Source: Clostridia bacterium (GTDB lineage Bacteria; Bacillota; Clostridia; Christensenellales; Aristaeellaceae). Taken from it: 64,000 nt of DNA. Positions 38,033 through 64,000 of this stretch are shown here, in pieces. Below the pieces are notes generated by a model. That model made no database searches and had not been told where the DNA came from. It saw only the letters and a program-made list of their open reading frames with translations. Position numbers and translations under genes: made by a program. The stretch is from the NCBI GenBank assembly GCA_017936375.1, contig JAGBFR010000025.1, forward strand, positions 1 through 64,000, in the 5' to 3' direction. Each line of letters starts with the position of its first letter. Position 1 is the stretch's first letter.

Positions 38033-38155
38033 TAGAGTGTGATGACGGATGGAACTCATGCAATGCGAAGGTGTGAACCTTGTCAGGGCCGGAAGGCAGC
38101 AGCAATAAGCATTGTATCGTGTGTGCCGTGGGAATTTTCTGCCCCGAGCATTCTA
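38033..38155 (+). ncRNA. ffs: Small (4.5S-type) signal recognition particle RNA
   Basis: The conserved apical domain is present: GTCAGGGCCGGAAGGCAGCAGC around 38080-38102 (symmetric loop plus GGAA tetraloop), with GTGTGCCGTGGGA on the 3' side. The ends pair: TAGAGTG (38033-38039) with the GCATTCTA end (38148-38155) through one G-U. This RNA binds Ffh and targets membrane proteins co-translationally. The Alu domain of Bacillus-type SRP RNA is absent; the length is of the short bacterial class. The exact ends are inferred from pairing. Confidence 0.88.
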
Positions 38156-45602: not shown

Positions 45603-47324
<1,722 letters not shown>

Positions 47325-47371
47325 GGAAATCCCTCCTTTGGAGTACCTTGGATTAGTATCCATATTGAGAT

Positions 47372-47400
47372 AGTATACTATACCTGCGTTTTTTTTTCAA
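47372..47400 (-). promoter_or_regulatory. Promoter of glnS-gltX
   Basis: On the minus strand TTGAAA (47395-47400), 17-base spacer, TATACT (47372-47377), ~48 bases before the glnS ATG. Confidence 0.8.
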
Positions 47401-47514
47401 TGATTCTTTGGCTATTTCGCCCCCGTGCAGAGAAATTTGCGCAGGAAAAACCGCGGACAATCGCGATGCGCCGTATCGCTTTACAATCCGATTTGTTTGA
47501 TATATGATGGAAAT

Positions 47515-47623
47515 AGAAAAAGCCCGCAGAAGCGGGCAGCTCACACACTGTGAGGTTGGACAAAGCCAACAGGTTTGGCAACGCCGTATTTGAACGCGTT
47601 GTGTTGTAAGATGGTAACCTTAC
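47515..47623 (-). ncRNA. tracrRNA of the type II-A CRISPR locus
   Basis: Read on the minus strand, the anti-repeat occupies 47619-47589. It pairs with the CRISPR repeat in three blocks (TTTGA, TTGTGTTG, GATGGTAA) separated by a bulge. Next come a short nexus hairpin (GGC-GTT-GCC), a GTTGG/CCAAC hairpin, a CTCACA/TGTGAG hairpin and a terminator GCCCGC-TTCT-GCGGGC plus T run (to ~47515). Its own promoter lies at 47630-47658. The RNA of ~109 bases should guide crRNA maturation by RNase III and load Cas9. It is transcribed away from cas9. Confidence 0.88.
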
Positions 47624-47629
47624 ACGGTT

Positions 47630-47658
47630 ATCTTATCACGGCGTGCGCCTGTTGTCAA
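47630..47658 (-). promoter_or_regulatory. tracrRNA promoter
   Basis: On the minus strand, consensus TTGACA (47653-47658), exactly 17 bases, TAAGAT (47630-47635). The start site is expected near 47623. The -35 box ends only ~6 bases before the cas9 ribosome site, so cas9's own promoter must lie within or before the tracrRNA gene. Confidence 0.82.
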
Positions 47659-47678
47659 TGGACAAAGGAGGAAAATGC

Positions 47679-50600
47679 ATGTCCGAATACTTCATTGGTC
47701 TGGATATCGGTACGGATTCCGTGGGCTGGGCGGTGACGACGCCGGATTACCGCGTGGTAAAGAAGAACGGCAAGGCGCTGTGGGGCGTGAGGCTGTTTGA
47801 AAGCGCGCAGAATGAGAAGGACAAGAATAAAAAAACGCCCATGGCCGAACGCAGAGGACACAGGTCAGCGCGCCGCCGCCTTGAGCGAAGGAAGCAGAGA
47901 ATCAGCATGATCCGAGCGTATTTCAGCGAGGAGATTGCGAAGATTGATCCGGCGTTTTTTCTGAGATTGGACGAGAGCAAATTCCACCCGGAGGATAAGA
48001 AGCTCACCGATGATGGGATGCCGCTGGGGAAGCATCTGCTTTTCACCGGGAGTGCGTATAATGACAAACAGTATCATAAGGACTATCCGACGATTTATCA
48101 TCTCAGGCATGCGCTGATGACACAGGAACGGGAGTTTGATGTGAGGCTTGTGTATCTGGCTGTCCACCATATTATTAAAAACCGTGGTCATTTTCTTCAG
48201 CCGGATATGAACATAGAGGATGTACAATCGTTTGATCTGTGCTGGAATGCGCTTATTGATTATCTGAGAGAAGAATCTGATGCTGAAGATGTGCCCGTGA
48301 TTTCCTTTGCAGATATAAAGGGGATTGAGGATATTCTGCTCAGCCGTGATCTCCGGGCGAAGGAGAAGAAAAAGCTGCTGTGCGAAAAGGCCGGACTTAA
48401 TCAGAAGAACGACGCGCACAAACAGCTGTGTGCAATTCTTGGATTGATCTCGGGAAATACCGAGAGCGCAGCGACGGTATGCCGTCTCAGAATACCTGCG
48501 CAGGAAGATATGAAAGTCAGCTTCAGTGATTTTGACGAAGAAAAAGAAGGCAAGCTTGCAGAACTGGTCGGCGAGAGCATGGAATTGATGAATATTATCA
48601 GGGGTGTTTTTGACTGGGCAGTACTCAATCAAATGACGCATGGCAATAGTTCTATTTCTGAAGAACGGATAAAGACATATGAATGCCATCGTCAGGATCT
48701 GAAAGATTTGAAAGCGGTCTTTGGCACAGACAGGAAACTCTATAACGAAGTATTCCGCAAAGAGGGAATGGATAATTATCCCAGCTATATTGGACACACG
48801 AAGCGGAAAAGCAATTTCAAATATGAGGACTTCTGCAAATTTGTCAAAAAGCGGGTTGAAATGGTCAAGAATGGCCTCCATGGTGAACTGAGAGAGAAAG
48901 CCGAGAAGATTCTGCAAAGGCTTGAGGATGGCACATTCATGCCCAAACAGACGAACAGGGATAACGGTGTGATTCCCCATCAGCTGCACGAGTATGAGCT
49001 GAAAGTCATTCTGGATCGCGCGAGCCGGTATCTGCCGTTTCTCAATGAGATTGACGAGAGCGGCCTTGCGTGCAAGGAACGGATCATGGCGATTTTCCGC
49101 TTCAGAATTCCCTATTATGTCGGGCCGCTGACCAGCAAGGGGGCAAAAAAGCCTGAGGAGAATGGCAGAAAGGACAGAAAGAAACAGAACTGCTGGGTGG
49201 TTCGCACCGATGAAAAGATCACGCCGTGGAATTTTGAGCAGGTCGTGGATCTTGAAAAGTGCGCAGAAAACTTTGTTACCCGCATGACGGCAGTCTGCAC
49301 CTATATCGGGGAGCCCATTCTGCCTAAGGATTCGCTGCTGTACAGCCGCTTTATGGTGCTCAATGCCATCAATAAAATCAGGATTAACGGGGATCTGATC
49401 TCGCCGGAGCTTAAGCAGCGGATATACAATGAGCATATTCTCGCACAAGGAAAGACGAGCTATGCGCAGATTCGGAGATTCATGCTCGCCAATGGATTGA
49501 TGCAGAAAGGCGATGAACTGACGGGCATTGATGAAGAATTCAAGGCAACGCTGACCGGGTACAAGACATTCAAGCAGATTCTCTCAAAGGGCGGCAATGA
49601 GGAGATGATTGAGGACATCATCCGGCATATTGTCCTATTCAGTGAGGAGAAAAAGCGGCTGGCCATATGGATGGAGAAAACGTACGGCAACCGTCTTGGC
49701 GAGGGGGACTGCGATTATGTTCTCAAGCAGTGCGGCCGATTCAAGGGCTGGGGTAAGCTGTCGGCTGAGTTCCTGACAGAGATCAAGCATGCTGACAGTG
49801 AAACAGGCGAACTGCTGTCCATCGACGACATGCTCTGGCAGACGAGCGATAATCTGAATGAACTGCTCTCGGACAAATACAGCTTTATGCAGGCAGTCAG
49901 GGAATACCGCGCCGGTAAGGCTGGGGCGAACAGGGACACGCTGGAAGATGTGCTTGACAATTCCTATGTATCGCCCAATATCCGCAGAGCGATCCATCAG
50001 ACGATCGGCGTCATCTCGGAGATTGAGAAGATCATGCGCGGAAAACCCAAGCGAGTGTTTGTCGAAGTGGCCAGAGAGAAGGGAAAAGAGGGACGGGTAC
50101 CCTCACGAAAGAGGGAACTGGAAGCACTCTATGCCAAATGCAGCGGCGAAGTCGAGGCAATCTGCGAGCAGCTTGGGCTGGAAAATGAAGGCAATTTGCG
50201 CAGCAAGAAGCTGTATCTGTATTACAAGCAGAAGGCACAGTGCATGTACAGCGGAGAACCGATTAAGCTGAGCGAATTGATGACCAGCAATGGGCGCTAT
50301 GACATCGACCATATCTATCCGCAGAGCCTTGTGAAGGAAGACAGTCTTGACAATATGGTACTGGTAAAAAAGAGCCTGAATCAGGAAAAGAGCAACGATC
50401 TGCTCAGCCCGAAGATTCGCAGCGATAGAAGGCCCTTCTGGGAGGAACTCAAACGAGAAGGGTTTATCTCAGAGGAGAAGTTTAAGCGGCTGACGCGCAG
50501 AGAGCCATTCGGCGAGGAGGAACGCGCGGGATTTATCGCCAGACAGCTTGTTGAAATGCGGCAGTCTACAAAGGTGATAGCGCATCTGCTTGAGGAGCGG

Positions 50601-51800
50601 TATGGCGAAGCAAGCGAGGTCGTCTATGTAAAGGCGGGCAATGTCAGCGCATTCAGGCAGGATCAGCACATCCTTCCGGATGGAACAAGGATTGACGCCA
50701 GCGTATGTAAGAGAGATGATTCTAAGCAGGATCCGCTCTTTGTCAAGTGCCGCGAGGTCAATGATTTCCACCATGCGAAGGACGCCTACCTCAATATCGT
50801 TGTGGGCAATGTGTATCACATGAAATTCACGCGGAGCCCGATTACCTTTATCCGCAGCGGACAGCCTTACAGCATGAACTGCGTGTTTGCCAGAGATGTT
50901 ATCCGCAATGGCGAGTGTGCATGGAAGGCGGGGGACGAGGGTTCGATCGCCATGGTTCGCAGCATGATGCGCAAAAATAATATTCTCTTTACGAGGTATA
51001 CGCATGAAGCGGCGGGTAAGTTGTTCGATGCAAATATTGTATCCAAAAGAAAAGGATTGACGAGAATCAAGGAAAGCGATCCAAGATTAACAACCGAGAA
51101 GTATGGTGGATACGATAAAGCCCGAACTGCGTATTTCTTCTTTGCAGAGCATACAGAAGGAAAAAAACGCATACGTTCGATAGAAACTGTGCTGATTATG
51201 CACAAAGAGATGTATGAAAAGAATCCTGAATTATATTGCGAGATGATGTGTGGATTAATAGAGCCAAGAGTTCTTATTCGCAAGATTCCGATTGATAGCC
51301 TTATTTCCTACGATGGATATAGGATGTTTATGGCCTCAAGATCAAACGATAATATATTCTATAATAATGCTCATCAGCTTGTGATTGACAATGAGATGTG
51401 TTCATATGTAAAACAGCTGGCAAAGAGTAAAAAAACAGGGATTCTTGTTAAGGGGATTACTGCAGAAAAGAATACTGAACTATATGATTTAATCAGATCA
51501 AAACTGAGTGCAACAATATATAGGATTAAGTATGAAACACCGCTTAAGCATCTGGATAGTCTGAGAGAGAATTTCGTATCTGCTGCTATAAAAGATCAGG
51601 TTGAAGCACTCATGCAGATTATGAATCTGTTTACAACGAGTACAGTTAAAAAGGATCTCAAGATCATAGGCGGAAAGGCAACGGGGCAGTTAAGCCTTTC
51701 AAAGAGGCTTGACGTTTCTGGGAAACACAAAGTGATACTGATTCATCAATCAATCACTGGCTTCTTTGAGCAGGAAATCGACCTGCTTGGTGAATTCTGA
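47679..51800 (+). CDS. cas9: Cas9 endonuclease, type II-A
   Basis: 1373 residues from ATG 47679 (AAAGGAGGAAAATGC). RNA-guided double-strand DNA nuclease. RuvC-I IGLDIGTDSVGWAV (D9), Arg-rich bridge helix (RRGHRSARRRLERRKQR, ~60-80), a large REC lobe, RuvC-II RVFVEVAREKG (E796), HNH YDIDHIYPQS (D877, H878) with its distal Asn, RuvC-III NDFHHAKDAYLN (H1032, D1035), and a C-terminal PAM-interacting region ending IHQSITGFFEQEIDLL. All catalytic residues are intact. Codon use is more AT-rich than neighbours, most of all in the last ~800 bases. It is followed directly by a csn2 remnant; cas1 and cas2 are absent. Confidence 0.96.
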   Translation: MSEYFIGLDIGTDSVGWAVTTPDYRVVKKNGKALWGVRLFESAQNEKDKNKKTPMAERRGHRSARRRLERRKQRISMIRAYFSEEIAKIDPAFFLRLDESKFHPEDKKLTDDGMPLGKHLLFTGSAYNDKQYHKDYPTIYHLRHALMTQEREFDVRLVYLAVHHIIKNRGHFLQPDMNIEDVQSFDLCWNALIDYLREESDAEDVPVISFADIKGIEDILLSRDLRAKEKKKLLCEKAGLNQKNDAHKQLCAILGLISGNTESAATVCRLRIPAQEDMKVSFSDFDEEKEGKLAELVGESMELMNIIRGVFDWAVLNQMTHGNSSISEERIKTYECHRQDLKDLKAVFGTDRKLYNEVFRKEGMDNYPSYIGHTKRKSNFKYEDFCKFVKKRVEMVKNGLHGELREKAEKILQRLEDGTFMPKQTNRDNGVIPHQLHEYELKVILDRASRYLPFLNEIDESGLACKERIMAIFRFRIPYYVGPLTSKGAKKPEENGRKDRKKQNCWVVRTDEKITPWNFEQVVDLEKCAENFVTRMTAVCTYIGEPILPKDSLLYSRFMVLNAINKIRINGDLISPELKQRIYNEHILAQGKTSYAQIRRFMLANGLMQKGDELTGIDEEFKATLTGYKTFKQILSKGGNEEMIEDIIRHIVLFSEEKKRLAIWMEKTYGNRLGEGDCDYVLKQCGRFKGWGKLSAEFLTEIKHADSETGELLSIDDMLWQTSDNLNELLSDKYSFMQAVREYRAGKAGANRDTLEDVLDNSYVSPNIRRAIHQTIGVISEIEKIMRGKPKRVFVEVAREKGKEGRVPSRKRELEALYAKCSGEVEAICEQLGLENEGNLRSKKLYLYYKQKAQCMYSGEPIKLSELMTSNGRYDIDHIYPQSLVKEDSLDNMVLVKKSLNQEKSNDLLSPKIRSDRRPFWEELKREGFISEEKFKRLTRREPFGEEERAGFIARQLVEMRQSTKVIAHLLEERYGEASEVVYVKAGNVSAFRQDQHILPDGTRIDASVCKRDDSKQDPLFVKCREVNDFHHAKDAYLNIVVGNVYHMKFTRSPITFIRSGQPYSMNCVFARDVIRNGECAWKAGDEGSIAMVRSMMRKNNILFTRYTHEAAGKLFDANIVSKRKGLTRIKESDPRLTTEKYGGYDKARTAYFFFAEHTEGKKRIRSIETVLIMHKEMYEKNPELYCEMMCGLIEPRVLIRKIPIDSLISYDGYRMFMASRSNDNIFYNNAHQLVIDNEMCSYVKQLAKSKKTGILVKGITAEKNTELYDLIRSKLSATIYRIKYETPLKHLDSLRENFVSAAIKDQVEALMQIMNLFTTSTVKKDLKIIGGKATGQLSLSKRLDVSGKHKVILIHQSITGFFEQEIDLLGEF

Positions 51801-52167
51801 TGAACTTTGGTATCATCTTATACTTCTGAAACCTGAGATGGATTATCCTGTCGCCTATGAGCAGAGCGAGAATCTGGCGGCTCTGCTCAAGGCGATGGAT
51901 TTCCGCGTCGAGCTCGACGGGCTTCCTGTTGTCGAGGCGCTATATGAGCATATTGCGCTGTATCACAGGCTGATGAAGAATCAATGCTTTATCCTTGTGC
52001 ATGCGAAGGCGTACTTTTCTGAAGATGAGATGCTGAAGCTGTATGAGATGGCGCAGTATCAGAAGTGGAATCTGCTGCTGGTGGAGTCGCACGAGTACGA
52101 AAACAAGCTTAAAGCTGAACAGCACAGGCTGTTTGATGCAGATTTATGCGAACTCATTCTTGAATAA
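51766..52167 (+). pseudogene. csn2: Truncated csn2 (C-terminal part only)
   Basis: A frame overlapping the cas9 end encodes a segment that resembles the C-terminal ~90-110 residues of Csn2: LAALLKAMDFRVE, VVEALYEHIALYHRLM, FILVHAKAYFSEDEMLKLYE, WNLLLVESHE and a terminal DADLCEL. Intact Csn2 is ~220 residues; the N-terminal half is missing. Recognisable csn2 sequence begins within ~40 bases after the cas9 stop (51798-51800), placing a deletion junction at about 51800-51840. No strong ribosome site precedes the possible ATG at 51838. Csn2 forms a DNA-end-binding ring for spacer acquisition; this piece should not. Confidence 0.75.
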
Positions 52168-52188
52168 TGGGGAACCATGCGATAAAAT
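52160..52188 (+). promoter_or_regulatory. CRISPR array promoter in the leader
   Basis: TTGAAT (52160-52165), 17-base spacer, TAAAAT (52183-52188), overlapping the csn2 remnant end; start expected ~52195, ~50 bases before the first repeat. Confidence 0.65.
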
Positions 52189-52236
52189 GAATGTACCATC
52201 TACATGCACGGCGCTTCGTTGTGGCGTTATCTCTCA

Positions 52237-52243
52237 ATTTGAG
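52237..52243 (+). promoter_or_regulatory. Leader-anchoring sequence ATTTGAG
   Basis: The seven bases directly before the first repeat are ATTTGAG. This is the leader-anchoring sequence described for type II-A systems such as S. thermophilus CRISPR1, where it directs Cas1-Cas2 to the leader-proximal repeat. Confidence 0.6.
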
Positions 52244-52609
52244 GTTTGAGGATTGTGTTGTTTTAGATGGTAATCAAACCATCTCCTGAGTGTGACCCTT
52301 TGGCAGATCGTTTGAGGATTGTGTTGTTTTAGATGGTAATCAAACCGTAGAGCTAGAGACATTGGAGATAACGGTGTTTGAGGATTGTGTTGTTTTAGAT
52401 GGTAATCAAACGCGGGATTCGCTCTGGCTGTCGCCCTTGTAGTTTGAGGATTGTGTTGTTTTAGATGGTAATCAAACAAGAAGGCGAGCACGATGCTCGC
52501 GCCCAAGGTTTGAGGATTGTGTTGTTTTAGATGGTAATCAAACGTCGTAAAGCTCGGCTTCGACATCGACATGGTTTGAGGATTGTGTTGTTTTAGATGG
52601 TAATCAAAT
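52244..52609 (+). CRISPR. CRISPR array: 6 repeats of 36 bp, 5 spacers of 30 bp
   Basis: Repeats at 52244, 52310, 52376, 52442, 52508 and 52574 begin GTTTGAGGATTG and end GGTAATCAAAC. The first five are identical; the last ends in T rather than C, marking the trailer end. Spacers: 52280-52309, 52346-52375, 52412-52441, 52478-52507, 52544-52573, all 30 bases. Direction is + : the GTTTGAG end follows each spacer and pairs with the tracrRNA anti-repeat, and the anchoring motif is on the left. No spacer matches anything I can find in this window. Spacer 3 and the complement of spacer 4 read as hydrophobic peptides, as in membrane-protein genes. Confidence 0.97.
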
Positions 52610-52622
52610 ATCCTGCATATAC

Positions 52623-52660
52623 ACGCCTGTGATTCTCCCATGAGCATCGCAGGCGTTTTG
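52623..52660 (+). terminator. Terminator after the CRISPR array
   Basis: ACGCCTG (52623-52629) pairs with CAGGCGT (52650-52656) with an additional GAT/ATC pair inside, followed by TTT. Confidence 0.75.
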
Positions 52661-52804
52661 CTATACAGACGAGCGCCACAGAAAGCGCCCCGCCGCCCCG
52701 GCGCATTCCCCCGAATTCCGTCACATACAGGCAAAAAAGCGCGCGAAATCTTCACCCTCTTGTGAAAAATATGCCGCAGGGTGTTTCCTTTTGCCGAAGG
52801 GATG

Positions 52805-52813
52805 TGCTATAAT
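52805..52813 (+). promoter_or_regulatory. Extended -10 promoter of the NifU-like/GGGtGRT operon
   Basis: TGCTATAAT (52805-52813) is a consensus extended -10; the -35 (TTTCCT, 52784-52789) is weak. 64 bases to the ATG. Confidence 0.65.
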
Positions 52814-52876
52814 AAACCGGTTGCAAATATTGAGCATTCTCTGCTCTCAAGCATCACGATAAGGAGGACACACACT

Positions 52877-53578
52877 ATGCAGTATTCCCGCGAAGTGGAA
52901 GAAATGATCTGCGTTGCCAAGGGTCCGAATCACGGCCCGGCTCCGATCCCGGAAGAGGGCAAGTGGGTTCAGGCGAAGGAGATCAAGGATATCTCCGGCT
53001 ACACCCATGGCATCGGCTGGTGCGCCCCGCAGCAGGGCACCTGCAAGCTCTCCCTGAATGTTAAGAACGGCGTCATCGAAGAGGCTCTGGTCGAGACCAT
53101 CGGCTGCTCCGGTATGACCCATTCCGCCGCGATGGCGTCCGAGATTCTCCCGGGCAAGACCATCCTCGAGGCGCTGAACACCGACCTCGTCTGCGACGCG
53201 ATCAACACCGCCATGCGCGAGCTGTTCCTGCAGATCGTCTATGGCCGCACCCAGTCCGCTTTCTCCGATGACGGCCTGCGCATCGGCGCCGGTCTGGAGG
53301 ATCTGGGCAAGGGCCTGCGCTCCATGGTCGGCACCATGTACGGCACCAAGGCGAAGGGCACCCGCTACCTCGAGATGACCGAGGGCTACGTGCTCAAGAT
53401 GGCGCTGGACAAGGACGATCAGGTCTGCGGCTATCAGTTCCTGTCCCTGGGCAAGATGATGGACGCCATCAAGAAGGGCATGTCCCCGAACGAGGCGTAT
53501 GAGAAGAACATCGGCACCTACGGCCGCTTCAAGGCTGAGGATGGCGCTGTGAAGTGGATCGATCCGCGCAACGAGTAA
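52877..53578 (+). CDS. NifU-like iron-sulfur scaffold-related protein
   Basis: 233 residues from ATG 52877 behind AAGGAGGACACACACT. The first ~140 residues resemble the NifU/IscU fold (CKLSLNVKNGVIEEALVETIGCSGMTHSAAMASEILPGKTILEAL), with Cys residues in GWCAPQQGTCK and IGCSGM. It is the partner always found next to the GGGtGRT protein in Clostridia and Bacteroidetes. Whether it carries a cluster is unknown. Codon use is strongly biased to C-ending codons, suggesting high expression. Confidence 0.82.
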   Translation: MQYSREVEEMICVAKGPNHGPAPIPEEGKWVQAKEIKDISGYTHGIGWCAPQQGTCKLSLNVKNGVIEEALVETIGCSGMTHSAAMASEILPGKTILEALNTDLVCDAINTAMRELFLQIVYGRTQSAFSDDGLRIGAGLEDLGKGLRSMVGTMYGTKAKGTRYLEMTEGYVLKMALDKDDQVCGYQFLSLGKMMDAIKKGMSPNEAYEKNIGTYGRFKAEDGAVKWIDPRNE

Positions 53579-54927: not shown

Positions 54928-55749
54928 TTGACAGCCAATATCATCGCCATCGCCAACCAGAAGGGCGGCGTCGGCAAGACAACGACTTGTGCCAACTTGG
55001 GAATCGGATTGGCGCAGGAAGGAAAGAAGGTGCTGCTGATTGACAGCGATCCGCAGGCCAGCCTCACGATCAGCCTTGGATTCCCGAAGCCGGATCAACT
55101 GCCTATGACGCTTTCGGATGTCATGGGCGCAGCTATGATGGATCAGCCGGTGAACGTACAGGACGCCATTCTTCAGCATTGGGAGAAGGTGGACATTCTG
55201 CCGTCGAGCATCGAGCTTTCCGGTCTGGAGGTATCGTTGGTTAATGCCATGAGCAGAGAGACGATTCTCAAGCAGGCGCTTGAACCGCTGAAAAGGCAGT
55301 ACGACTACATCCTGATCGATTGTATGCCCTCGCTGGGGATGCTCACGATCAACGCGCTGGCGGCAGCAAGCAGCGTCCTGATTCCAGTTCAGGCGCAGTA
55401 CCTTCCGGCGAAGGGCCTTGAACAGCTTCTGCACACAGTATCGCGTGTACAGCGGCAGCTTAATCCAAAGCTCAAGATCGACGGCATTCTGCTGACAATG
55501 GTGGATAGCCGGACGAACTACGCCAAAGAAATCAGCGGCTTGCTGCGTGAGACATACGGCAGCAGAGTAAAAGTCTTTGGAATGGATATCCCGCACTCCG
55601 TTCGCGCTTCAGAGATCAGTGCGGAAGGCAAGAGCATCTTCGCACACGATCCCAAGGGAAAGGTTGCAGCGGCGTATCACGATCTTACGAAGGAGGTGCT
55701 CAAGATTGAAAGGCAGCGGCAGAAAGCTAAGTCTGACCTCTTACGATGA
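54928..55749 (+). CDS. parA: ParA/Soj partition ATPase
   Basis: 273 residues starting at TTG 54928 behind GAAGGAGGAGTGATTC. Deviant Walker A NQKGGVGKTTTCAN, Walker A' DSDPQASLT, and Walker B ILIDCMPSLGMLTINAL. It powers segregation of low-copy replicons and excised integrative elements. It overlaps parB by 44 bases. This gene opens the element's maintenance module. Confidence 0.92.
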   Translation: MTANIIAIANQKGGVGKTTTCANLGIGLAQEGKKVLLIDSDPQASLTISLGFPKPDQLPMTLSDVMGAAMMDQPVNVQDAILQHWEKVDILPSSIELSGLEVSLVNAMSRETILKQALEPLKRQYDYILIDCMPSLGMLTINALAAASSVLIPVQAQYLPAKGLEQLLHTVSRVQRQLNPKLKIDGILLTMVDSRTNYAKEISGLLRETYGSRVKVFGMDIPHSVRASEISAEGKSIFAHDPKGKVAAAYHDLTKEVLKIERQRQKAKSDLLR

Positions 55750-56644
55750 AATCTTCTCGACGGAGGAAAGCAGGGCGGATGAGCGGCGCGAGAAGGTCAC
55801 GGAGATTCCGCTTTCACAGCTTCATCCGTTCAGAAATCATCCCTTCAAGGTGCAGGACGATGAGAGAATGGCAGATACGGCTGAGAGCATCCGGGAATAC
55901 GGAGTTCTTGTTCCTGCGATTGTCCGTCCACGGGAAGAAGGCGGTTTCGAGATTGTTGCCGGTCACAGACGAAAGCGCGGATGTGAAATCGCTGGGCTTG
56001 ACACGATGCCGGTGATTGTCCGTGATCTGGATGACGATGCAGCGACGATCATCATGGTTGACAGCAACATCCAGCGCGAGAGTCTTTTGCCCAGCGAAAG
56101 AGCGTTTGCGTACAAGATGAAGCTGGATGCCATGAAAAGACAAGCCGGAAGGCCGAGCAAGGGAAATTATTCCCAAGTTGGGAATAATTCTTTGGGAACG
56201 ACTTCAAGTGAGCTTATGGCTCAACAAATTGGCGAAAGCAAGAATCAAATATTCAGATTCATTCGCCTCACCAACCTGATTCCTGAACTGCTGGAAATGG
56301 TCGATAATCGCAAGATTGCGTTCAATCCTGCCGTGGAACTGTCGTATCTCAAACAGGACGAGCAGACGGAACTTCTGGACGCTATGGACAGCGAACAGGC
56401 GACACCTTCGCTTTCTCAGGCACAGCGCCTGAAGAAGTTCAGTCAGGAAGGGCGCTTGTCCATCGACGTGATGCGCGCGATCATGTCGGAAGAAAAGAAA
56501 AGCGATCTGGATCGTGTGACGCTATCGAGCGAGAAGCTGTCAAAATACTTCCCCAAGTCATGGACGCCTTCGCAGATGGAAAACCAAATCATCAAGCTCC
56601 TTGAAAGCTGGTACAAACGACGCCAGCAGATGCAGGAGCGGTAA
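55706..56644 (+). CDS. parB: ParB/Spo0J-type partition protein
   Basis: 312 residues from TTG 55706 (AAGGAGGTGCTCAAGA), inside the end of parA. The ParB/Srx N-terminal domain has ERMADTAESIREYGVLVPAIVRP and VAGHRRKRGCEIAGL (the CTP-binding GxRR-like box as GHRRKRG). A central HTH (SSELMAQQIGESKNQIFRFIRL) binds parS. The C-terminus is helical. Longer upstream frames overlap parA and lack support. Confidence 0.9.
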   Translation: MKGSGRKLSLTSYDEIFSTEESRADERREKVTEIPLSQLHPFRNHPFKVQDDERMADTAESIREYGVLVPAIVRPREEGGFEIVAGHRRKRGCEIAGLDTMPVIVRDLDDDAATIIMVDSNIQRESLLPSERAFAYKMKLDAMKRQAGRPSKGNYSQVGNNSLGTTSSELMAQQIGESKNQIFRFIRLTNLIPELLEMVDNRKIAFNPAVELSYLKQDEQTELLDAMDSEQATPSLSQAQRLKKFSQEGRLSIDVMRAIMSEEKKSDLDRVTLSSEKLSKYFPKSWTPSQMENQIIKLLESWYKRRQQMQER

Positions 56645-56666
56645 CGCCCTGCATGGGCGTTTTTTT
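56644..56666 (+). terminator. Terminator after parB
   Basis: ACGCCC-TGCAT-GGGCGT followed by seven T, overlapping the parB stop. Confidence 0.85.
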
Positions 56667-56694
56667 GTATCCGTGAGGAAAGGGGGAAACCAGC

Positions 56695-57606
56695 GTGGCG
56701 TTTTTTCGCGTGGAGAAAACGAGGGATTACACGGTTATGGCAAACCATCACCTGAAAAACAGGAATCTGACGCTCAAGGCCAAGGGGCTGCTGTCCGTCA
56801 TGCTTTCGCTGCCGGATGATTGGGATTTCACACTCAAGGGGCTGGCGCGGATCAACCGCGAGGGCATCGACGCGATCCGGGAAGGGATCAGGGAACTTGA
56901 GCAGGCTGGTTATGTGATGCGACACAGGGTACGGGACGAGCGGGGAAAGCTGCGCGGCAATGAATACGTGATCTATGAACGCCCGCAGCTGCCAACATCG
57001 GATTGTCCTGCGCAGGAAAAGCCTGCGTTGGAAAACCCAACGTTGGATAATCCAACGCAGGAAAACCCAACGTTGGAAAAACCTACGTTGGAAAATCCAA
57101 TGCAATTAAATACTCAAGGAACAAGTACGTATTCCCCAAATACGTATGTACCCAATACTCATGCAGAAAATCCTAATCCATCAAATCCTTATCCATCCTT
57201 CAGGCAGACGCCTGCGCGGGAAACGGATGGAGTGATGGAGCTGATGGATGCCGTCCGCAGCCAGATCGGCTATGACTGCATTGCGGACAGGTTCAACCGG
57301 GAACGCCTGGATGAAATCGTCGAGCTCATCACGGAGATTCTTGCTTCCCAGAGTGAAACCATCACGATATCTGGCATGGCGTACCCGGCAGCGCTGGTGA
57401 AGCGGCGCTTTGAAATGATCAACAGCCTGCATATCGAGTTTGTCTTTGCCAGCCTTGAGCAGAGCGCAAGCCCGATCCGCAACATCAAGCAGTACCTCAA
57501 AACGACGCTGTTCAATGCGACCGGCACGATGAACAGTTATTATGACGCGCTGGTTCGACACGAACAGCGAAGAAAATACGATTGGATGGATGATCTGGAT
57601 GGATAG
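56695..57606 (+). CDS. Replication-initiator-like winged-helix protein with DUF6017
   Basis: 303 residues from GTG 56695 (GGAAAGGGGG upstream). Residues ~1-95 are a winged-helix replication/regulatory domain (NHHLKNRNLTLKAKGLLSVMLSLP, GIDAIREGIRELEQAGYV), common in clostridial integrative elements. A pentapeptide-repeat linker (105-139: PALEN, PTLDN, PTQEN, PTLEK, PTLEN) follows. The C-terminal ~120 residues match DUF6017 (DGVMELMDAVRSQIGYDC...). It probably starts replication of the excised element or regulates it. The 15-bp linker repeats are described separately. Confidence 0.82.
   Translation: MAFFRVEKTRDYTVMANHHLKNRNLTLKAKGLLSVMLSLPDDWDFTLKGLARINREGIDAIREGIRELEQAGYVMRHRVRDERGKLRGNEYVIYERPQLPTSDCPAQEKPALENPTLDNPTQENPTLEKPTLENPMQLNTQGTSTYSPNTYVPNTHAENPNPSNPYPSFRQTPARETDGVMELMDAVRSQIGYDCIADRFNRERLDEIVELITEILASQSETITISGMAYPAALVKRRFEMINSLHIEFVFASLEQSASPIRNIKQYLKTTLFNATGTMNSYYDALVRHEQRRKYDWMDDLDG
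57007..57111 (+). repeat. Tandem 15-bp repeats inside the initiator gene
   Basis: Seven 15-base units encode PAQEK, PALEN, PTLDN, PTQEN, PTLEK, PTLEN and PMQLN. Central units contain the palindrome CCAACGTTGG. Either a simple protein linker repeat or iterons within the rep gene. Confidence 0.7.
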
Positions 57607-57680
57607 GATGGGATATGGATGCCGCTCGCCGCCGCCAGAGGATGGGCAGCATTTCACAACGACAAACAGGAGGAATCCCA

Positions 57681-58625
57681 ATGAGCAAGCACAACGACAG
57701 GAAACACAGTGGACGCAAAGGCGTCATGGGTACGTTTCTGGCGCTTCTTCTGATCGGCGCGCTGGCAATTGCCGTGCCGGTCATCATGCAGGATATGGAG
57801 CTGAACCGCGATGCGGCGGAATACGAGGAACTGCGTAAGTCATTGGTGACCGCAGTGCCCGTACCGACGCCGGATGAACCCAAGCCGGTCGATCCGGCTG
57901 TGAACGTAGGCATTCCGGACGAAACGGAAACGCCGGACAGCGAAACCGAGGAAAGCGGCGATGAGTCGGTGCCGCCCGCAGCGGCGGCAGAACCGCAGGC
58001 AACCGAGAACCCGGCAGCAGAGGAATCTGCTGCCCCTTCTCAGGTGCAGGAAGAGAGAACCGTGCCCGATATGGCGGCGCTCAAGGCACAGAATGACGAT
58101 TTCGCCGCCTGGATTCAGATTCCGGGTACGAATGTCGATTATCCCGTGGTGGTGTCGGACGATACAGAATACTACCTGACGCATACGTTCACCGGGAAGG
58201 AAAGCAAGATCGGCACGCTCTTTTCTCTGGCGAAGACCGATTACGCAGCGCCCAGCAGGAACATTGCCATCTACGGTCACAACATCAAGAGCAGCGGAAA
58301 CAACATGTTCCGCACGCTCCACTCCTACAAGGATCAGGACTTCTATGACGAACACGATACCGTTTACTTCGATACGCTGTATCGCTCCGGCGCGTATTCC
58401 ATCTTTGCGGTGCTCAACATGATCGACGGTGAATGGGACCCGTCCACGGCGATGTTCGTGGATGATGATGCGTTCATGCGATTCGTTGAGCGCGCAAGAG
58501 CACAGTCCATGTACGAGACGGGCGTGGATGTGACGCCGCAGGATGAAATCCTCACGCTCATCACCTGTGACCGTTCATACAGCTCCCCGGATGGCCGCCT
58601 GCTGGTGATGGCAGTCAGACAGTAA
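57681..58625 (+). CDS. srtB: Class B sortase
   Basis: 314 residues from ATG 57681 (CAGGAGGAATCCCA). One membrane anchor (~15-36), a Pro/Glu-rich spacer (~60-135), then the sortase domain. The catalytic triad is visible: His in AIYGHNIKSSG, Cys in LTLITCDRS and Arg in DGRLLVMAVRQ. Class B sortases attach or polymerise surface proteins at (N/S)PxTG-like motifs. The adjacent Cna-B giant is the obvious substrate; its sorting signal lies outside the window. Confidence 0.92.
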   Translation: MSKHNDRKHSGRKGVMGTFLALLLIGALAIAVPVIMQDMELNRDAAEYEELRKSLVTAVPVPTPDEPKPVDPAVNVGIPDETETPDSETEESGDESVPPAAAAEPQATENPAAEESAAPSQVQEERTVPDMAALKAQNDDFAAWIQIPGTNVDYPVVVSDDTEYYLTHTFTGKESKIGTLFSLAKTDYAAPSRNIAIYGHNIKSSGNNMFRTLHSYKDQDFYDEHDTVYFDTLYRSGAYSIFAVLNMIDGEWDPSTAMFVDDDAFMRFVERARAQSMYETGVDVTPQDEILTLITCDRSYSSPDGRLLVMAVRQ

Positions 58626-58655
58626 TGAAAAGCACAACTGGAAGGAGGAACGGCA

Positions 58656-61600
58656 TTGAAACTGACGAAAGGCAAAGTGATCTCAGCGCTGCTGGTTTTG
58701 CTGCTGGTGCTTCTTGCGCTCTTCCCGATTCCGGCGACGTCGGAAAGCGGGATGGGAGAAGAGGCGGCGATTGAAATCACGATCCCGGATGAAGAACCGC
58801 CGGAAGAACCCGAAGCGATTCAGATTGAGCTGGATGCGGATGACGATGAACCGGCGCAGGAAGATGTTCCTGAGATTGAGGTGTCCTTGGAGGAAACCGA
58901 AGATGATCTGCCGGATGAAGAACCAGCAGACGAGCTGGTGATCGAAGATATCCAGATCACCGAAGAAGCGCCGGAAGAACCCGTGCAGTCGGAAGAACCT
59001 GCACAGCCGGAAGAAGAACCGGCTGATCTGGCGGGCGTGATTGCGGCACACGGATATGCGTATGTGGTGACAACCGGTGAAACGAAGGTGTATGGTTCTT
59101 CGGATTTGGCGGAAGATCAGCACGTTTTCACGATTACAGGCGGTCAGCCGCTTCTGGCAACGGCTTGTATTGACAGCGAAACACATTCCAGTATCAAGGT
59201 CTGGTTCATCACGGGAACCGGTGAGGCGATGACCGGCTATGTGCCCGCGCAGTTCCTGGAGGAAGCGCCGCTTGATGTGGATGAAGCCAATGCGGTGGCT
59301 GCCTATGGTTCCGGCTATGTGGATTCGGAAGCGGGCATTCTGCTGGCCTTTGTCGTTCTGGGAGAGTTCCCGCAGACGATGGAGGAAACAGCGCCTGACG
59401 ACATGGTGGCGGAGGACATTCAGATTCCTGACGAGGAAGAGAGCGCAGCCATCGAAGTGGTGCTGCCGGATGAACAGGAGGACGAATCGATTCCCGCTGA
59501 GCCTGAGACAACTGAAGAGCATGAAGAAATCCCCGATTCCAAGCAGATGCTTGCTGAAATCGGGGATTTTGCTTATGTCACGACGAATACGCGAGCCTTC
59601 ATGGAGGTCGATGAATCGGCTGCGGACGATTACTACGGCGACTATTTCCTTGGCTACTTCCTCAAGGACGCCGCTGTTCAGGTCGAGGACGTAGTGACAG
59701 ATTTCCTTGACCGCACATGGTACAGCGTCTCATACATCTACGGCCCGGATGAAGGCGACGGCCTGACCTGTGAAATCGTCGGCACGGTATACGTCCTTGC
59801 AGAAGAAACGGAGCAGACCGATCTTGATGAGCGAACGGCGACGGATTACGGATATCCGCCTGATTATTTCAGGCCGATACTGCTGTCATCGTTCTATGTG
59901 GATCTGGAAGACCATTATGGCGGTGTGGCGAGCTTCTATGTCGGAGAATCCGGCCTGCATGCCACGACCGGTCACGACAACGAGTATAAGCAGATCGCCC
60001 GGCACGACGAGTACGGCACGATCTTTGCTACGCCGCATTACCTCAAGGGAGAGACGGCGTACTGCCTTGAGCATACCCAGCCCAGCCCGGTTGTACGCGA
60101 TCATGCTTCCGGCCCTTATCAGATCGTCGATCTGGACGGCTACAAGGTGACGCCCGGTTACTCCGGCTACATCTTCTCGGATAAGACCATGCACGCGCTT
60201 GCATGGGTGCTGCGGCATACCTACCCGTTCATGGTGCTGGATCGCAGCGATTCGGATAACGAAGTCTGGTGCCGCGTTGCCGGTCAGTTTGCCATGCGTG
60301 AGGTCATCAAGCAGCTTGAAGGCGATTTCTACGTCATGGACTATTGGGAGATGGACGAGTTCTATCGCGCCTACGATCAGGCTCCCGGCGTCTATCTGGA
60401 TTATGCCAGATGGCTGGCGGAGGAAGCACTGGCCTACGTAGAGGATTACGGAAACGTCACGGTATCGAATAAATCCGTCAGCGCGTCCGGCGGCAAGTAC
60501 ATCGGCACGGCAACGCTGTATACGAGCGCGGACAGACTGCGCATCAGCACATCGGTTGGTTCGGTTTCAGGTCACTCCGGTGGCAGCGATGGCGAATACT
60601 ATTACGTGTACAGCGGCGATACGATCTCCATCACGTCCAGCAAGAGCAAGTTCTCCGTGCCGATTGAGATCATGCCTTCTGCGGATGATGAGGCGCGCTT
60701 CTATGTTGGCGTCACCTATGAGGATATTCAGAAGCTGGTTCTGCCGGTATACGGCGAGCCGTATCCGATCCTTGCGACGTCGCTGGATTTTGAAGTGCCT
60801 CACGGCTCTGTCACGGTGAGCAAGAAGAGTGCACAGACCGGTGCGCTGCTGCCGGGAGCCGTCTTTGAGCTTTTGAACAGCTCCGGCAGCGTCGTGCAGA
60901 CGCAGACGACCGGGGCAAATGGCACGGCGACGTTCAGCAACCTGACGCCGGGTACTTACAGCGTCCGTGAAAAGACAGCGCCGCAGGGCTATCTGCTTTC
61001 GGCGACGAGTTCGCAAAGCGTCACGGTGACGGCAGGCGTCAATGCACAGGTGAGCTTCTCCAATGAAGTCAGCAAGTCGAGAATCCGGATCATCAAGACG
61101 GATTCGTTGACCGGCGATGCGCTGGCTGGTGCAGAGTTCACGATTACACGCCTGTCTGCACCGTCTGGCGGTTCGGGCGTTGGGAGCGTCGCGGCAGTCC
61201 TGACGACGGGTGCAGATGGCACGGCTGAAACCGGCTGGCTTGAATGGGGCAGGTACAGGATTGAAGAAACCAAAGTGCCTGAACATTATGAGGACAGCGG
61301 CTTTGTCACGGAGATCGATGCGTATGAAAACGGCAGAACGTATGAGTTCAGCGTGAAGAATACGCCGGTCTGTGGTTACATCCAGCTGACCAAGACGGAT
61401 GCTGAGCGCGGCATCCCACTCAGCGGCGTCCAGTTCGATATCTATCACAATGACGCCTACGGATCGGGGCTTGCCGGCAGCATGACGACGGATGCAGACG
61501 GAATTGCGCATTCCGGGCCGCTGCGAAAGGGAACGTATCGCGTGGAAGAGCATGCGAATCCCGAAGGCTATACCGGCGAGCTGACAACGCTTGACGCAGT

Positions 61601-64000
61601 GGTAAAACCGGATGAAACGACAGCGCTTGAAGCTGAGAACCAGCCGATTCAGGGAAAGATTCGGATTGTCAAAACGGATGAGCTGACCGGCGAAGCACTT
61701 GCAGGCGCAGAGTTCACGATCACGCGCATCGAAGCCTCTCCAGCTGCGAACGGCGCTGGTGTTGGCGAAACGACAACCATCACGACGGACGAAAGCGGCA
61801 TTGCTGAAACCGGATGGCTTGACTATGGTACATATCGCATCACAGAAACCGTTGTCCCGGAACATTTCGTGGACAGCGGTTTTTCTGTTGAGGTAGACGT
61901 CCATGAGGATCAGCAGACCTATACCGTAGATGTTCCGAATGAACCGACGAAGGGATACATCCAGATCGTCAAGACGGACAGCCTCGATCAGACGCCGATT
62001 GAGGGCGTGCAGTTTGATATCTACTACAACGACGAGTATGGCGAAGGGCTTGCGGCGACCATGACGACCAATGCAGACGGCGTAGCGGTTTCGCAGCCGC
62101 TTCGCAAGGGCAGGTACATCGTGCGCGAGCACGACAATCCTACCGGCTATGTCTCTGAGCTGATCGAGCTGAACGCTGCGGTCAAGTCGGATGAAACGAC
62201 GTATCTGAGCGCAGAGAATGAACCGATTCAGGGGCAGATTCGGATCGTCAAAACGGATGAGCTGACCGGCGAAGCGCTTGCGGGCGCGGAGTTCACGATC
62301 ACCAGAATCAGCGGCCTGCCGTCTCATAAGGGCGCGGGCAACGGCGATGTTGTTGCCGTGCTGACTACGGATGCTTCCGGCGTTGCGGTTTCTCCGCTTC
62401 TGACGTGGGGCGTATACCGGGTGGAAGAGACGAAGGTGCCGGAGCATTTCGTGGACAATGGATTCACCGCTGATGTGACCATCGACGCGGAGAATATGCA
62501 GACCTATGAGGTTGCGGCGGAAAACGAGCCGACAAAGGGCTACATCCGAATCACCAAAACGGACAGGGTAAACGGCAATCCGATTGCCGGTGTTCGTTTT
62601 GATGTCTACTACAACGATCAGTACGGTGAAGGTCTGGCGACGAGCATGGTGACGGATGAAAACGGCGTCGCTGTATCTGAGCCGATCCGCAAGGGACGAT
62701 ACATCGTCAGGGAAAGCGGCGCAACGACCGGCTATCATTTTGAAGAGGTCACGCTGGATGCTACGGTCAGATCGGATGAAACGACGGAGCTTGCGGCAAC
62801 CAACATGCCTGTGCTGGTCAAACTGAGGATTTACAAGCGGGACGCCGGGGAGATGGCTCCCAAGAGCATCGGCCTGAAGGCTCGCGGCGACGGTATCCTG
62901 ACCGGAGCGGAGTTTCAGGTGCTTGCTGCCGAGGACATCGTGGATCGACAGGGAAATGTGGTACATCCCATAGGCAGCATCGTCGTGGATTCCATTGTGA
63001 CCGAAGGCGATGACGCGGCAGCTCTTACCGATAACCTCTGGCCCGGTCTGTATGAGATCGTGGAAGTGACGCCGCCTGAAGGTTATCATCTGAGCAGCGA
63101 GCCGATCATTGTGGACGCGAGAAGCGCTGCGCAGCAGTCGGAGGAAGCGGTCATCATCTACGAAGGGACGAAATCCAATGAGATCATGACCGGCGCGCAG
63201 GCTATCGTGAAAATCCTTGGCAGCGGCGATCATAACCCCGATCCGGATCGCGTGGAGATTCCTGAACCCGGAGCAGAGTTTGAGGTTTATCTCAAGCGCG
63301 CTGGATCGTATGAGAACGCGAGAGACATCGAGCGCGATTACCTGGTGACGGATGAAAACGGCTATGCCAGAACCAAGGAGCTTCCGTATGGCGTGTATGT
63401 GCTCAGGCAGACGGTCGGCAAGGACGGCTATGAGCTCAAGAGCGCTATCGAGTTTAAGATCGACGGTACGGAAGATCTCATTTATCCGCCGATCATGACG
63501 CTCAGCGACAGACCGATCCTGTATCGCCTGCGCCTGATCAAGACGGATGCCAAGACCGGCAAGGTGATTACGCTGCCCGGAGCTTCGTTCAAGCTCAAGG
63601 ACGCGGACGGCAATTACGTGAGGCAGACGGTTTACTATCCGACAGAGAGGGAAATCGACACCTTCACAACGGATGATTCCGGTGCGGTGACGCTGCCGGA
63701 GACGGTTGGCTGGGGACTTTACTTCATCGAGGAAGTCAAAGCGCCGCAGGGCTATCTGATCAGGGATCAGGAACTGGCTGTTTTCGTGGGCAGAGACGGC
63801 GATACGCCGGACGGCGTGTATGAACTGGATATCGAGATTCCCAATGATCCGGTAAGCGGCAGGATTGTGGTGCACAAGAAGGGTCTTCAGATGACCGGTG
63901 TGCATGAAGAAAAGGACGAGTATGGTAATACGGTGTATGCGCCGGTTTTTGAAGAACGATATCTTGCAGGCGCGGTCTTTGAAGTGCGCACTGCGGAGGA
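58656..64000 (+). CDS. Giant Cna-B (SpaA) adhesin with probable thioester domain, 3'-truncated by window
   Basis: At least 1781 residues. TTG start at 58656 behind GGAAGGAGGAACGGCA, with signal peptide KGKVISALLVLLLVLLALFPIPATS. An acidic Glu/Pro region containing SH3-like parts (GVIAAHGYAYVVTTGETKVYG; DFAYVTTNTRAFMEV) is followed by a TED/TQxA-like domain (C470 in TAYCLEH and Q544 in AGQFAMREV could form a thioester). From ~residue 714 there are at least ten Cna-B domains (xxIxKTDxxTGxxLxGAxFxI ... GxYxxxExxxPxGY) with Lys/Asn/Glu positions for isopeptide bonds. It should be a long, covalently stabilised surface fibre displayed by the neighbouring sortase. Confidence 0.9.
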   Translation, partial: MKLTKGKVISALLVLLLVLLALFPIPATSESGMGEEAAIEITIPDEEPPEEPEAIQIELDADDDEPAQEDVPEIEVSLEETEDDLPDEEPADELVIEDIQITEEAPEEPVQSEEPAQPEEEPADLAGVIAAHGYAYVVTTGETKVYGSSDLAEDQHVFTITGGQPLLATACIDSETHSSIKVWFITGTGEAMTGYVPAQFLEEAPLDVDEANAVAAYGSGYVDSEAGILLAFVVLGEFPQTMEETAPDDMVAEDIQIPDEEESAAIEVVLPDEQEDESIPAEPETTEEHEEIPDSKQMLAEIGDFAYVTTNTRAFMEVDESAADDYYGDYFLGYFLKDAAVQVEDVVTDFLDRTWYSVSYIYGPDEGDGLTCEIVGTVYVLAEETEQTDLDERTATDYGYPPDYFRPILLSSFYVDLEDHYGGVASFYVGESGLHATTGHDNEYKQIARHDEYGTIFATPHYLKGETAYCLEHTQPSPVVRDHASGPYQIVDLDGYKVTPGYSGYIFSDKTMHALAWVLRHTYPFMVLDRSDSDNEVWCRVAGQFAMREVIKQLEGDFYVMDYWEMDEFYRAYDQAPGVYLDYARWLAEEALAYVEDYGNVTVSNKSVSASGGKYIGTATLYTSADRLRISTSVGSVSGHSGGSDGEYYYVYSGDTISITSSKSKFSVPIEIMPSADDEARFYVGVTYEDIQKLVLPVYGEPYPILATSLDFEVPHGSVTVSKKSAQTGALLPGAVFELLNSSGSVVQTQTTGANGTATFSNLTPGTYSVREKTAPQGYLLSATSSQSVTVTAGVNAQVSFSNEVSKSRIRIIKTDSLTGDALAGAEFTITRLSAPSGGSGVGSVAAVLTTGADGTAETGWLEWGRYRIEETKVPEHYEDSGFVTEIDAYENGRTYEFSVKNTPVCGYIQLTKTDAERGIPLSGVQFDIYHNDAYGSGLAGSMTTDADGIAHSGPLRKGTYRVEEHANPEGYTGELTTLDAVVKPDETTALEAENQPIQGKIRIVKTDELTGEALAGAEFTITRIEASPAANGAGVGETTTITTDESGIAETGWLDYGTYRITETVVPEHFVDSGFSVEVDVHEDQQTYTVDVPNEPTKGYIQIVKTDSLDQTPIEGVQFDIYYNDEYGEGLAATMTTNADGVAVSQPLRKGRYIVREHDNPTGYVSELIELNAAVKSDETTYLSAENEPIQGQIRIVKTDELTGEALAGAEFTITRISGLPSHKGAGNGDVVAVLTTDASGVAVSPLLTWGVYRVEETKVPEHFVDNGFTADVTIDAENMQTYEVAAENEPTKGYIRITKTDRVNGNPIAGVRFDVYYNDQYGEGLATSMVTDENGVAVSEPIRKGRYIVRESGATTGYHFEEVTLDATVRSDETTELAATNMPVLVKLRIYKRDAGEMAPKSIGLKARGDGILTGAEFQVLAAEDIVDRQGNVVHPIGSIVVDSIVTEGDDAAALTDNLWPGLYEIVEVTPPEGYHLSSEPIIVDARSAAQQSEEAVIIYEGTKSNEIMTGAQAIVKILGSGDHNPDPDRVEIPEPGAEFEVYLKRAGSYENARDIERDYLVTDENGYARTKELPYGVYVLRQTVGKDGYELKSAIEFKIDGTEDLIYPPIMTLSDRPILYRLRLIKTDAKTGKVITLPGASFKLKDADGNYVRQTVYYPTEREIDTFTTDDSGAVTLPETVGWGLYFIEEVKAPQGYLIRDQELAVFVGRDGDTPDGVYELDIEIPNDPVSGRIVVHKKGLQMTGVHEEKDEYGNTVYAPVFEERYLAGAVFEVRTAE
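61080..62809 (+). repeat. Three tandem double Cna-B modules
   Basis: Modules start at 61080, 61656 and 62235 (192-193 residues each). Each has one domain beginning IRI(I/V)KTD(S/E)LTG(D/E)ALAGAEF and a second beginning GYI(Q/R)(L/I)xKTD with the FD(I/V)Y core. The strong similarity of copies 2 and 3 suggests recent internal duplication. Confidence 0.85.

Follow-up and report, generated by a model that had tools for sequence, protein, structure and literature searches.

The locus described here is a type II-A-like CRISPR (clustered regularly interspaced short palindromic repeats)-Cas9 system in a stretch of 64,000 nucleotides, called the window below (positions 1 to 64,000 of contig JAGBFR010000025.1, assembly GCA_017936375.1), from a Clostridia bacterium of the family Aristaeellaceae, order Christensenellales. 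Lying between glnS and a NifU-like gene, it consists of a divergently oriented trans-activating CRISPR RNA (tracrRNA), a cas9 gene, a 3' remnant of csn2, an array promoter, a leader and a short array (Table 1), and every element was located where an earlier sequence-only reading had placed it. Each part of the locus is ordinary; the whole is unusual, and is one of a recurrent kind.

Neither cas1 nor cas2 gave a profile match in the window, and no match to Cas1 or Cas2 was found in the whole assembly (75 contigs, 81% complete), in which the sole csn2 match is the remnant at the locus itself. That remnant holds only the C-terminal half of Csn2 (TIGR01866 positions 112-222 of 222), in a frame that is still open, and homology to csn2 starts at the cas9 stop, so that a single continuous stretch, comprising cas1, cas2 and the 5' half of csn2, is missing. 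The profile searches therefore agree with the sequence-only reading, which had seen no cas1 or cas2 and only a csn2 fragment between cas9 and the array, and within the 81%-complete assembly the absence holds genome-wide, as expected of an interference-only Cas9 system. The full II-A order with which that reading had compared the locus, cas9-cas1-cas2-csn2-array, is found in its closest relatives, L009 and L010 (53-55% Cas9 identity), the latter being the same record as G033 and from the same family as the window. The proposal of one deletion from the cas9 stop into csn2 is borne out in its breakpoint and its remnant; that it was a single event is presumed, and caution comes from two related loci, L018 and L026, each of which shows two separate missing stretches.

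Cas9, described earlier as intact with its RuvC and HNH residues, is indeed full length. It scores 840 bits against TIGR01865 (cut-off 100), contains REC, HNH, RuvC and protospacer-adjacent motif (PAM)-interacting domains, and at eight of eight nuclease-motif residues checked carries the residue that is most frequent among 81 aligned Cas9s, these positions presumably having the roles assigned to them in SpCas9. The mark of a type II system, a Cas9 with RuvC and HNH nuclease residues, is thus present, and the closest solved structure by sequence is chain 9jwk_A. In the earlier label of naturally minimal Cas9 systems, minimal can apply only to the locus, the protein being full-sized. In a FastTree phylogeny the window Cas9 falls in a starred set of four with L009, L010 and L011, nested in turn in starred sets of 10 and 11, which places it among the Cas9s of csn2-bearing loci, as in type II-A, by FastTree only. 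Guanine-plus-cytosine (GC) content is 0.50 in the body of cas9 and 0.38 at its 3' end (window 50951-51800), as compared to 0.59 for the window.

The tracrRNA, with its promoter and terminator, is likewise present by sequence. Its anti-repeat forms a duplex with the CRISPR repeat of -31.6 kcal/mol, stronger than any obtained with 300 shuffled versions of the region (mean -18.6, best -28.5), so that the pairing of anti-repeat and repeat that characterizes type II systems is found here, by computation only. An anti-repeat occurs at the same divergent place in seven of eight relatives tested; in the eighth, L018, the search matched its upstream array instead, and a tracrRNA is not established for that locus. 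As a separate observation, L018 possesses two short arrays with the same repeat flanking cas9 (3370-3640, and 8640 on), each with a promoter-like site and a leader.

The five-spacer array of the window looks expressed, as first suggested, in that it is preceded by a consensus-match promoter. Its six repeats are spaced at 66 nt, five being identical and the last differing by one base. A promoter-like pair with a 17-base spacer is present in ten of ten leaders (from nine loci), as well as in three further leaders, even though the pattern would accept spacers of 15 to 18; nine of the ten start with TTGA and one, the upstream array of L018, with TTGC. All of these promoters are consensus matches only; for a rough background, 1.25% of 200-base pieces taken at random from the window, which is high in GC overall, contain TTGANN-17-TANNNT. 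In each of the ten leaders compared, the transcript is predicted to fold back on the first repeat, a leader-repeat hairpin that is also found in Streptococcus pyogenes. The motif ATTTGAG adjoins the first repeat, leaving the integration site intact, and in the accessible text of one study this leader end defines group 1 of type II-A (PMC5382924). A leader-repeat hairpin has also been described, in the part of the report that is accessible, for Cas13 systems (PMC13187072).

Table 1. Features of the CRISPR-Cas9 locus and its neighbours (window coordinates).
Feature	Coordinates	Strand	Remarks
glnS	45603-47363	-	left neighbour of the CRISPR locus
tracrRNA	about 47625-47517	-	anti-repeat about 47586-47620; terminator hairpin about 47517-47537, by sequence
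tracrRNA promoter TTGACA-17-TAAGAT	47630..47658	-	consensus match only, read from sequence
cas9	ATG 47679, stop 51798-51800	+	1373 aa
csn2 3' remnant	51796..52167	+	C-terminal half, joined to cas9 stop; profile match
array promoter TTGAAT-17-TAAAAT	52160..52188	+	overlaps csn2 stop; consensus match only
leader	52168..52243	+	ends in group-1 II-A motif ATTTGAG; transcript can pair with first repeat
CRISPR array	52244..52609	+	six 36-nt repeats and five 30-nt spacers
spacer 3	52412..52441	+	28/30 bases match a tail gene of a congener
terminator-like hairpin 3' of array	52622..52660	+	read from sequence
NifU-like gene, then GGGtGRT gene	from 52877		right neighbours of the locus

The main addition to the earlier finding is that the window is not alone, since six of 86 related loci have also lost most of cas1. 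A Cas9 search matched 54 genomes, the window's own included, and 30 loci of the order were examined; in all, 100 related loci were judged for cas1, cas2 and csn2 with profiles built in this analysis. Setting aside 3 duplicates and 11 loci that end before cas1 could be judged left the 86, of which 80 retain cas1 (at least 85% profile coverage) and six have it gutted. Among the 80 are three with cas1 split over frames and five with cas2 running off the piece, and in one subset of related loci 39 have cas1, cas2 and csn2 all at 85% or more. Loss was defined on cas1, so that loss of cas2 or csn2 only is visible only in pieces that are long enough. The split cas1 genes (L108, L057, L171) represent either real inactivation or sequence errors.

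The six deleted relatives differ in their breakpoints. In profile positions, L011 has cas1 1-53 followed by the array promoter; in L018 (Zagget6), positions 1-29 and 142-212 are joined to the csn2 tail and cas2 is gone; in L026 (Pseudoflavonifractor sp. An44), cas1 and cas2 are internally deleted and csn2 is intact. L111 retains cas1 positions 1-63, intact cas2 and csn2 and 17 repeats, L114 has positions 1-19 joined to csn2 with cas2 gone, and in L162, judged by eye, cas9 is directly followed by promoter and array. For L011 and L162 the array is cut off by the end of the contig. Many arrays end at contig ends, and the array lengths listed carry no claim of a difference in length. Because each retains what the other lacks, the window and L011 cannot share one deletion, while L111 and L114, as near relatives, may share a first event. 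On the Cas9 tree the presence and loss of cas1 require six label changes, the window counted, five of which are forced by well-supported branches; since shuffled labels give 6.8 changes on average, the losses are not clearly clustered, and by the tree cas1 would have been lost on at least five separate occasions. All six deleted relatives and the window retain the array promoter with its 17-base spacer, each of the six retains at least part of an array, and six of these seven loci, the window among them, have a full-length cas9 frame.

How such deletions arise is best seen in L014 (intact) and L026 (deleted), whose csn2 regions are 98% identical in DNA. The cas1 deletion of L026 is flanked by copies of a 10-base direct repeat and its cas2 deletion by copies with 8 bases exactly in common, both read from the junctions, and slippage between short repeats likely made these deletions. 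No direct repeat was seen at the junction of L111 as compared to L114, and for the window there is no close intact copy with which to compare the junction. The Cas9 proteins of L014 and L026 are 93-100% identical per 100-residue block up to about residue 1100, and 49-73% identical thereafter. Because the two are close except there, and because the PAM-interacting end of the window gene is AT-rich, the PAM domain of cas9 looks to have been exchanged by recombination. L014 itself, in which cas1, cas2 and csn2 are present, has a leader without its last ~40 bases, including the integration motif (L014:13890-14115), a gap near the contig end that may be a misassembly.

The locus as a whole was inserted horizontally in this lineage. 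No Cas9 match (E 1e-3) turned up in any of 28 congeners, and in 8 of 13 NifU-like loci (12 from congeners and one from the order) glnS lies directly beside the NifU-like gene across a gap of some 240-375 bases, all 8 being from congeners; the other 5 have no glnS match within the fetched piece. In the 8, similarity to the window ends near 47401 and resumes from about 52759. The lack of Cas9 in all 28 congeners, the empty site in 8 and the GC contrast are together the grounds for this conclusion. A Cas9 query against viral_contigs returned no relative, and so at that sensitivity no sign of a phage-borne copy.

Of the five spacers, spacer 3 has a recognizable target. Its two mismatches are to a gene of congener G005 on a 4.7-kb contig with five frames, two of which match phage tail-fibre families, two other phage families (one listed as of unknown function and one without a name) and one none. 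Homologues of this tail gene are found in 14 of the 28 congeners and in none of 32 other genomes, nor in the window's own genome (E 1e-8). At the same site of the G026 homologue spacer 3 has 6 mismatches, as compared to a best of 8 for 200 shuffled spacers run over the same 12 homologue loci. Spacer 3 thus most likely derives from a phage of this genus, and from this origin it follows that acquisition probably worked after arrival of the locus and was lost later. The two mismatches lie near the PAM end, and the G005 copy may therefore escape.

For spacers 1, 2, 4 and 5 no significant match was found in phage records, viral_contigs or related genomes. The whole array, searched against 50,697 phage records, gave weak matches only (26 records, best E 0.4), and no exact 20-23-base part of spacers 1-4 occurs in viral_contigs. 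Matches of spacer 5 to terminase genes of Tsukamurella, Arthrobacter and Gordonia phages were rejected as not significant (E 1 to 4); they fall at two different gene sites, with 7 to 9 mismatches in 30 bases in the three examined. Nine viral_contigs sharing exact 20-23-base parts with spacer 5 were likewise put down to chance, all having 6 mismatches over the full spacer. Outside the array the spacers match the own genome four times, and the two matches checked base by base have at least 6 mismatches (the best being to spacer 4).

The explanation that best accommodates these observations, with a probability of about 0.7, is that a horizontally acquired type II-A locus has been reduced to an interference-only module with a fixed memory. 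The spacer-integration genes would have gone with a deletion that ran from the cas9 stop to midway through csn2, leaving what interference needs, namely tracrRNA, Cas9 and the array with its promoter and leader. Transcription of the array would start at its own promoter, and the precursors of its CRISPR RNAs (crRNAs) would pair with tracrRNA and be cut by host RNase III, as is established for crRNA precursor/tracrRNA duplexes of type II systems. Cas9 would then cut DNA matching the five fixed spacers, of which at least one appears to be aimed at a phage-type tail gene of the genus, and the locus itself would add no further spacers, its intact integration site notwithstanding. Transcription, cutting and selection to retain the module are what we infer from the sequence, and some related II-A loci probably persist with a fixed memory.

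Several observations weigh against such a module. Spacer 3 fits the other 10 of the 12 homologues with 9-12 mismatches, no better than shuffled spacers. The window Cas9 is off consensus at 4 of 108 near-invariant columns (81 Cas9s), the joint highest count, shared with two intact loci, with a third intact locus at 4/109; intact loci have a median of about 1, which hints mildly at relaxed constraint. (These departures are at residues 854, 888, 909 and 961 of the frame at window 47676-51797, numbered from the frame start at 47676, one codon before the ATG at 47679; three lie in or beside the HNH domain.) The open frame of the csn2 remnant may mean that the deletion is young, and L114, whose Cas9 has lost its N-terminal part and whose array is eroded, speaks for decay in that case. 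In favour of retention, nonsynonymous (dN) and synonymous (dS) divergence between the Cas9 genes of L014 and L026 are 0.006 and 0.057 when only the 1067 codons upstream of the PAM domain are counted, but this range was picked after the difference in that domain had been seen; over all 1365 codons they are 0.059 and 0.178, and both sets include time before the loss. A dying remnant, in which adaptation was lost first, nothing maintains the rest and cas9 and the array are just unbroken so far, would accommodate the possibly recent deletion, the fate of L114 and the departures of the window Cas9. Such a remnant is nevertheless unlikely, if by no means negligible, given the full-length cas9 frames in six of seven deleted loci, the array promoter in all seven, and L018, which has lost two stretches of adaptation genes and yet has an open cas9.

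At 81% completeness the assembly also leaves some slight room for a distant cas1/cas2 copy elsewhere in the genome, and with it for adaptation in trans, whereby Cas1-Cas2 from an unassembled part would feed the array. Some Cas1 match is found in 23 of 60 relatives, and three genomes with deleted II-A loci (G094, G332 and G801) possess another Cas1; no Cas1 match, however, was found in this assembly, which has no Cas2 match either, and among the genomes with deleted loci there is none in G000, G297 (98% complete), G798 (99%) and G800. By the common view, moreover, integration in II-A depends on the Cas1, Cas2 and Csn2 of the system itself, so that supply in trans is improbable. Hardly credible is a repurposed Cas9 with a part in gene regulation or another non-defence function, a role that had been suggested for the locus. 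Such roles of Cas9 are known elsewhere and the array is short, but the nuclease residues are intact, the own-genome matches checked are poor, and spacer 3 fits a phage-type tail gene. As for loss of the adaptation genes in assembly, the genome is a draft, yet the junction is internal to a contig of 86.7 kb, and a loss of this kind also occurs in Pseudoflavonifractor sp. An44, a record without a metagenome-assembled-genome label for which a close intact locus is known; an artefact is accordingly the least probable explanation of all.

A wider extension of the interference-only module is that type II-A systems of Clostridia have repeatedly been turned into fixed-memory Cas9 modules by selection against the integrase Cas1, an idea that is possible but doubtful. 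In all seven cases the first quarter of cas1 contains the start of the deletion; Csn2 or Cas2 is sometimes retained, and the array promoter always is. The left edges lie without exception within positions 1-63 of the 287 of cas1 (L026 and L162 by eye), for which the chance, if edges were uniform over cas1 and six of them independent, is near 1 in 10,000; this clustering was noticed post hoc, in a small number of loci whose loss was defined on cas1. Were the idea true, memory writing would be costly and memory reading worth retaining. If the remaining Cas9 modules work, natural pairs such as L014 and L026 allow one to ask directly whether, of the two halves of CRISPR immunity, acquisition is the costly one.

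With respect to known systems, the locus resembles type II-A of leader group 1 (PMC5382924, in its accessible text) in having a Cas9 nested among those of intact cas1-cas2-csn2 loci, a divergent tracrRNA, 36-nt repeats, the ATTTGAG leader end and a csn2 remnant at the usual place. It differs in being without cas1, cas2 and half of csn2, and so in being unable by itself to add spacers. Because csn2 is only half present, it is filed as a II-A derivative rather than a full member; cas1 and cas2 are likewise absent from their place between cas9 and csn2. It also resembles L026 and L018, which combine gutted cas1 and cas2 with an open cas9, promoter and array, at other breakpoints; L026 retains csn2, and both genomes have another Cas1.

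Cas9-only loci are already known in type II-C. A locus of Campylobacter coli clade 3 has cas9 without cas1 or cas2 and no other cas genes elsewhere, and its authors doubt new acquisition; it is of type II-C, and the accessible part of the report does not show deletion scars (PMC4607530). The CampyICE1 system likewise possesses Cas9 and arrays without cas1/cas2, and relatively little spacer diversity over 214 genomes, but according to the accessible text is of type II-C, lies on a mobile element, has three arrays and is described as targeting competing plasmids (PMC8743540). A survey of complete genomes, as far as its accessible text goes, found none of 477 type II loci without cas1-cas2, as compared to 13% for type I and 49% for type III (PMC5294841). 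Only loci with three or more cas genes were counted, and for that reason the survey could presumably hardly have seen a cas9-only locus. The accessible texts on the II-A loci of Mycoplasma salivarium and Streptococcus anginosus (PMC8725752, PMC10310304) show no cas1 loss, and the only case lacking cas1/cas2 in that of PMC8730458 is of type I-E. The literature search turned up no report that adaptation has been lost repeatedly in II-A, a weak negative with most subscription journals outside the search, and such recurrence in II-A looks under-reported.

Among minor observations, Rfam gave no match in 47000-53000, and an ordinary bacterial small signal recognition particle RNA lies at 38047-38146 of the window. 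On the other side of the locus, the stretch 3' of the GGGtGRT gene (window 54928-64000; L096:1-5634) encodes ParA, a ParB-like gene (judged from the sequence only), a DUF6017/helix-turn-helix protein, a sortase, a very large surface protein with SpaA repeats and a large serine recombinase, which together probably make up an integrated mobile element.

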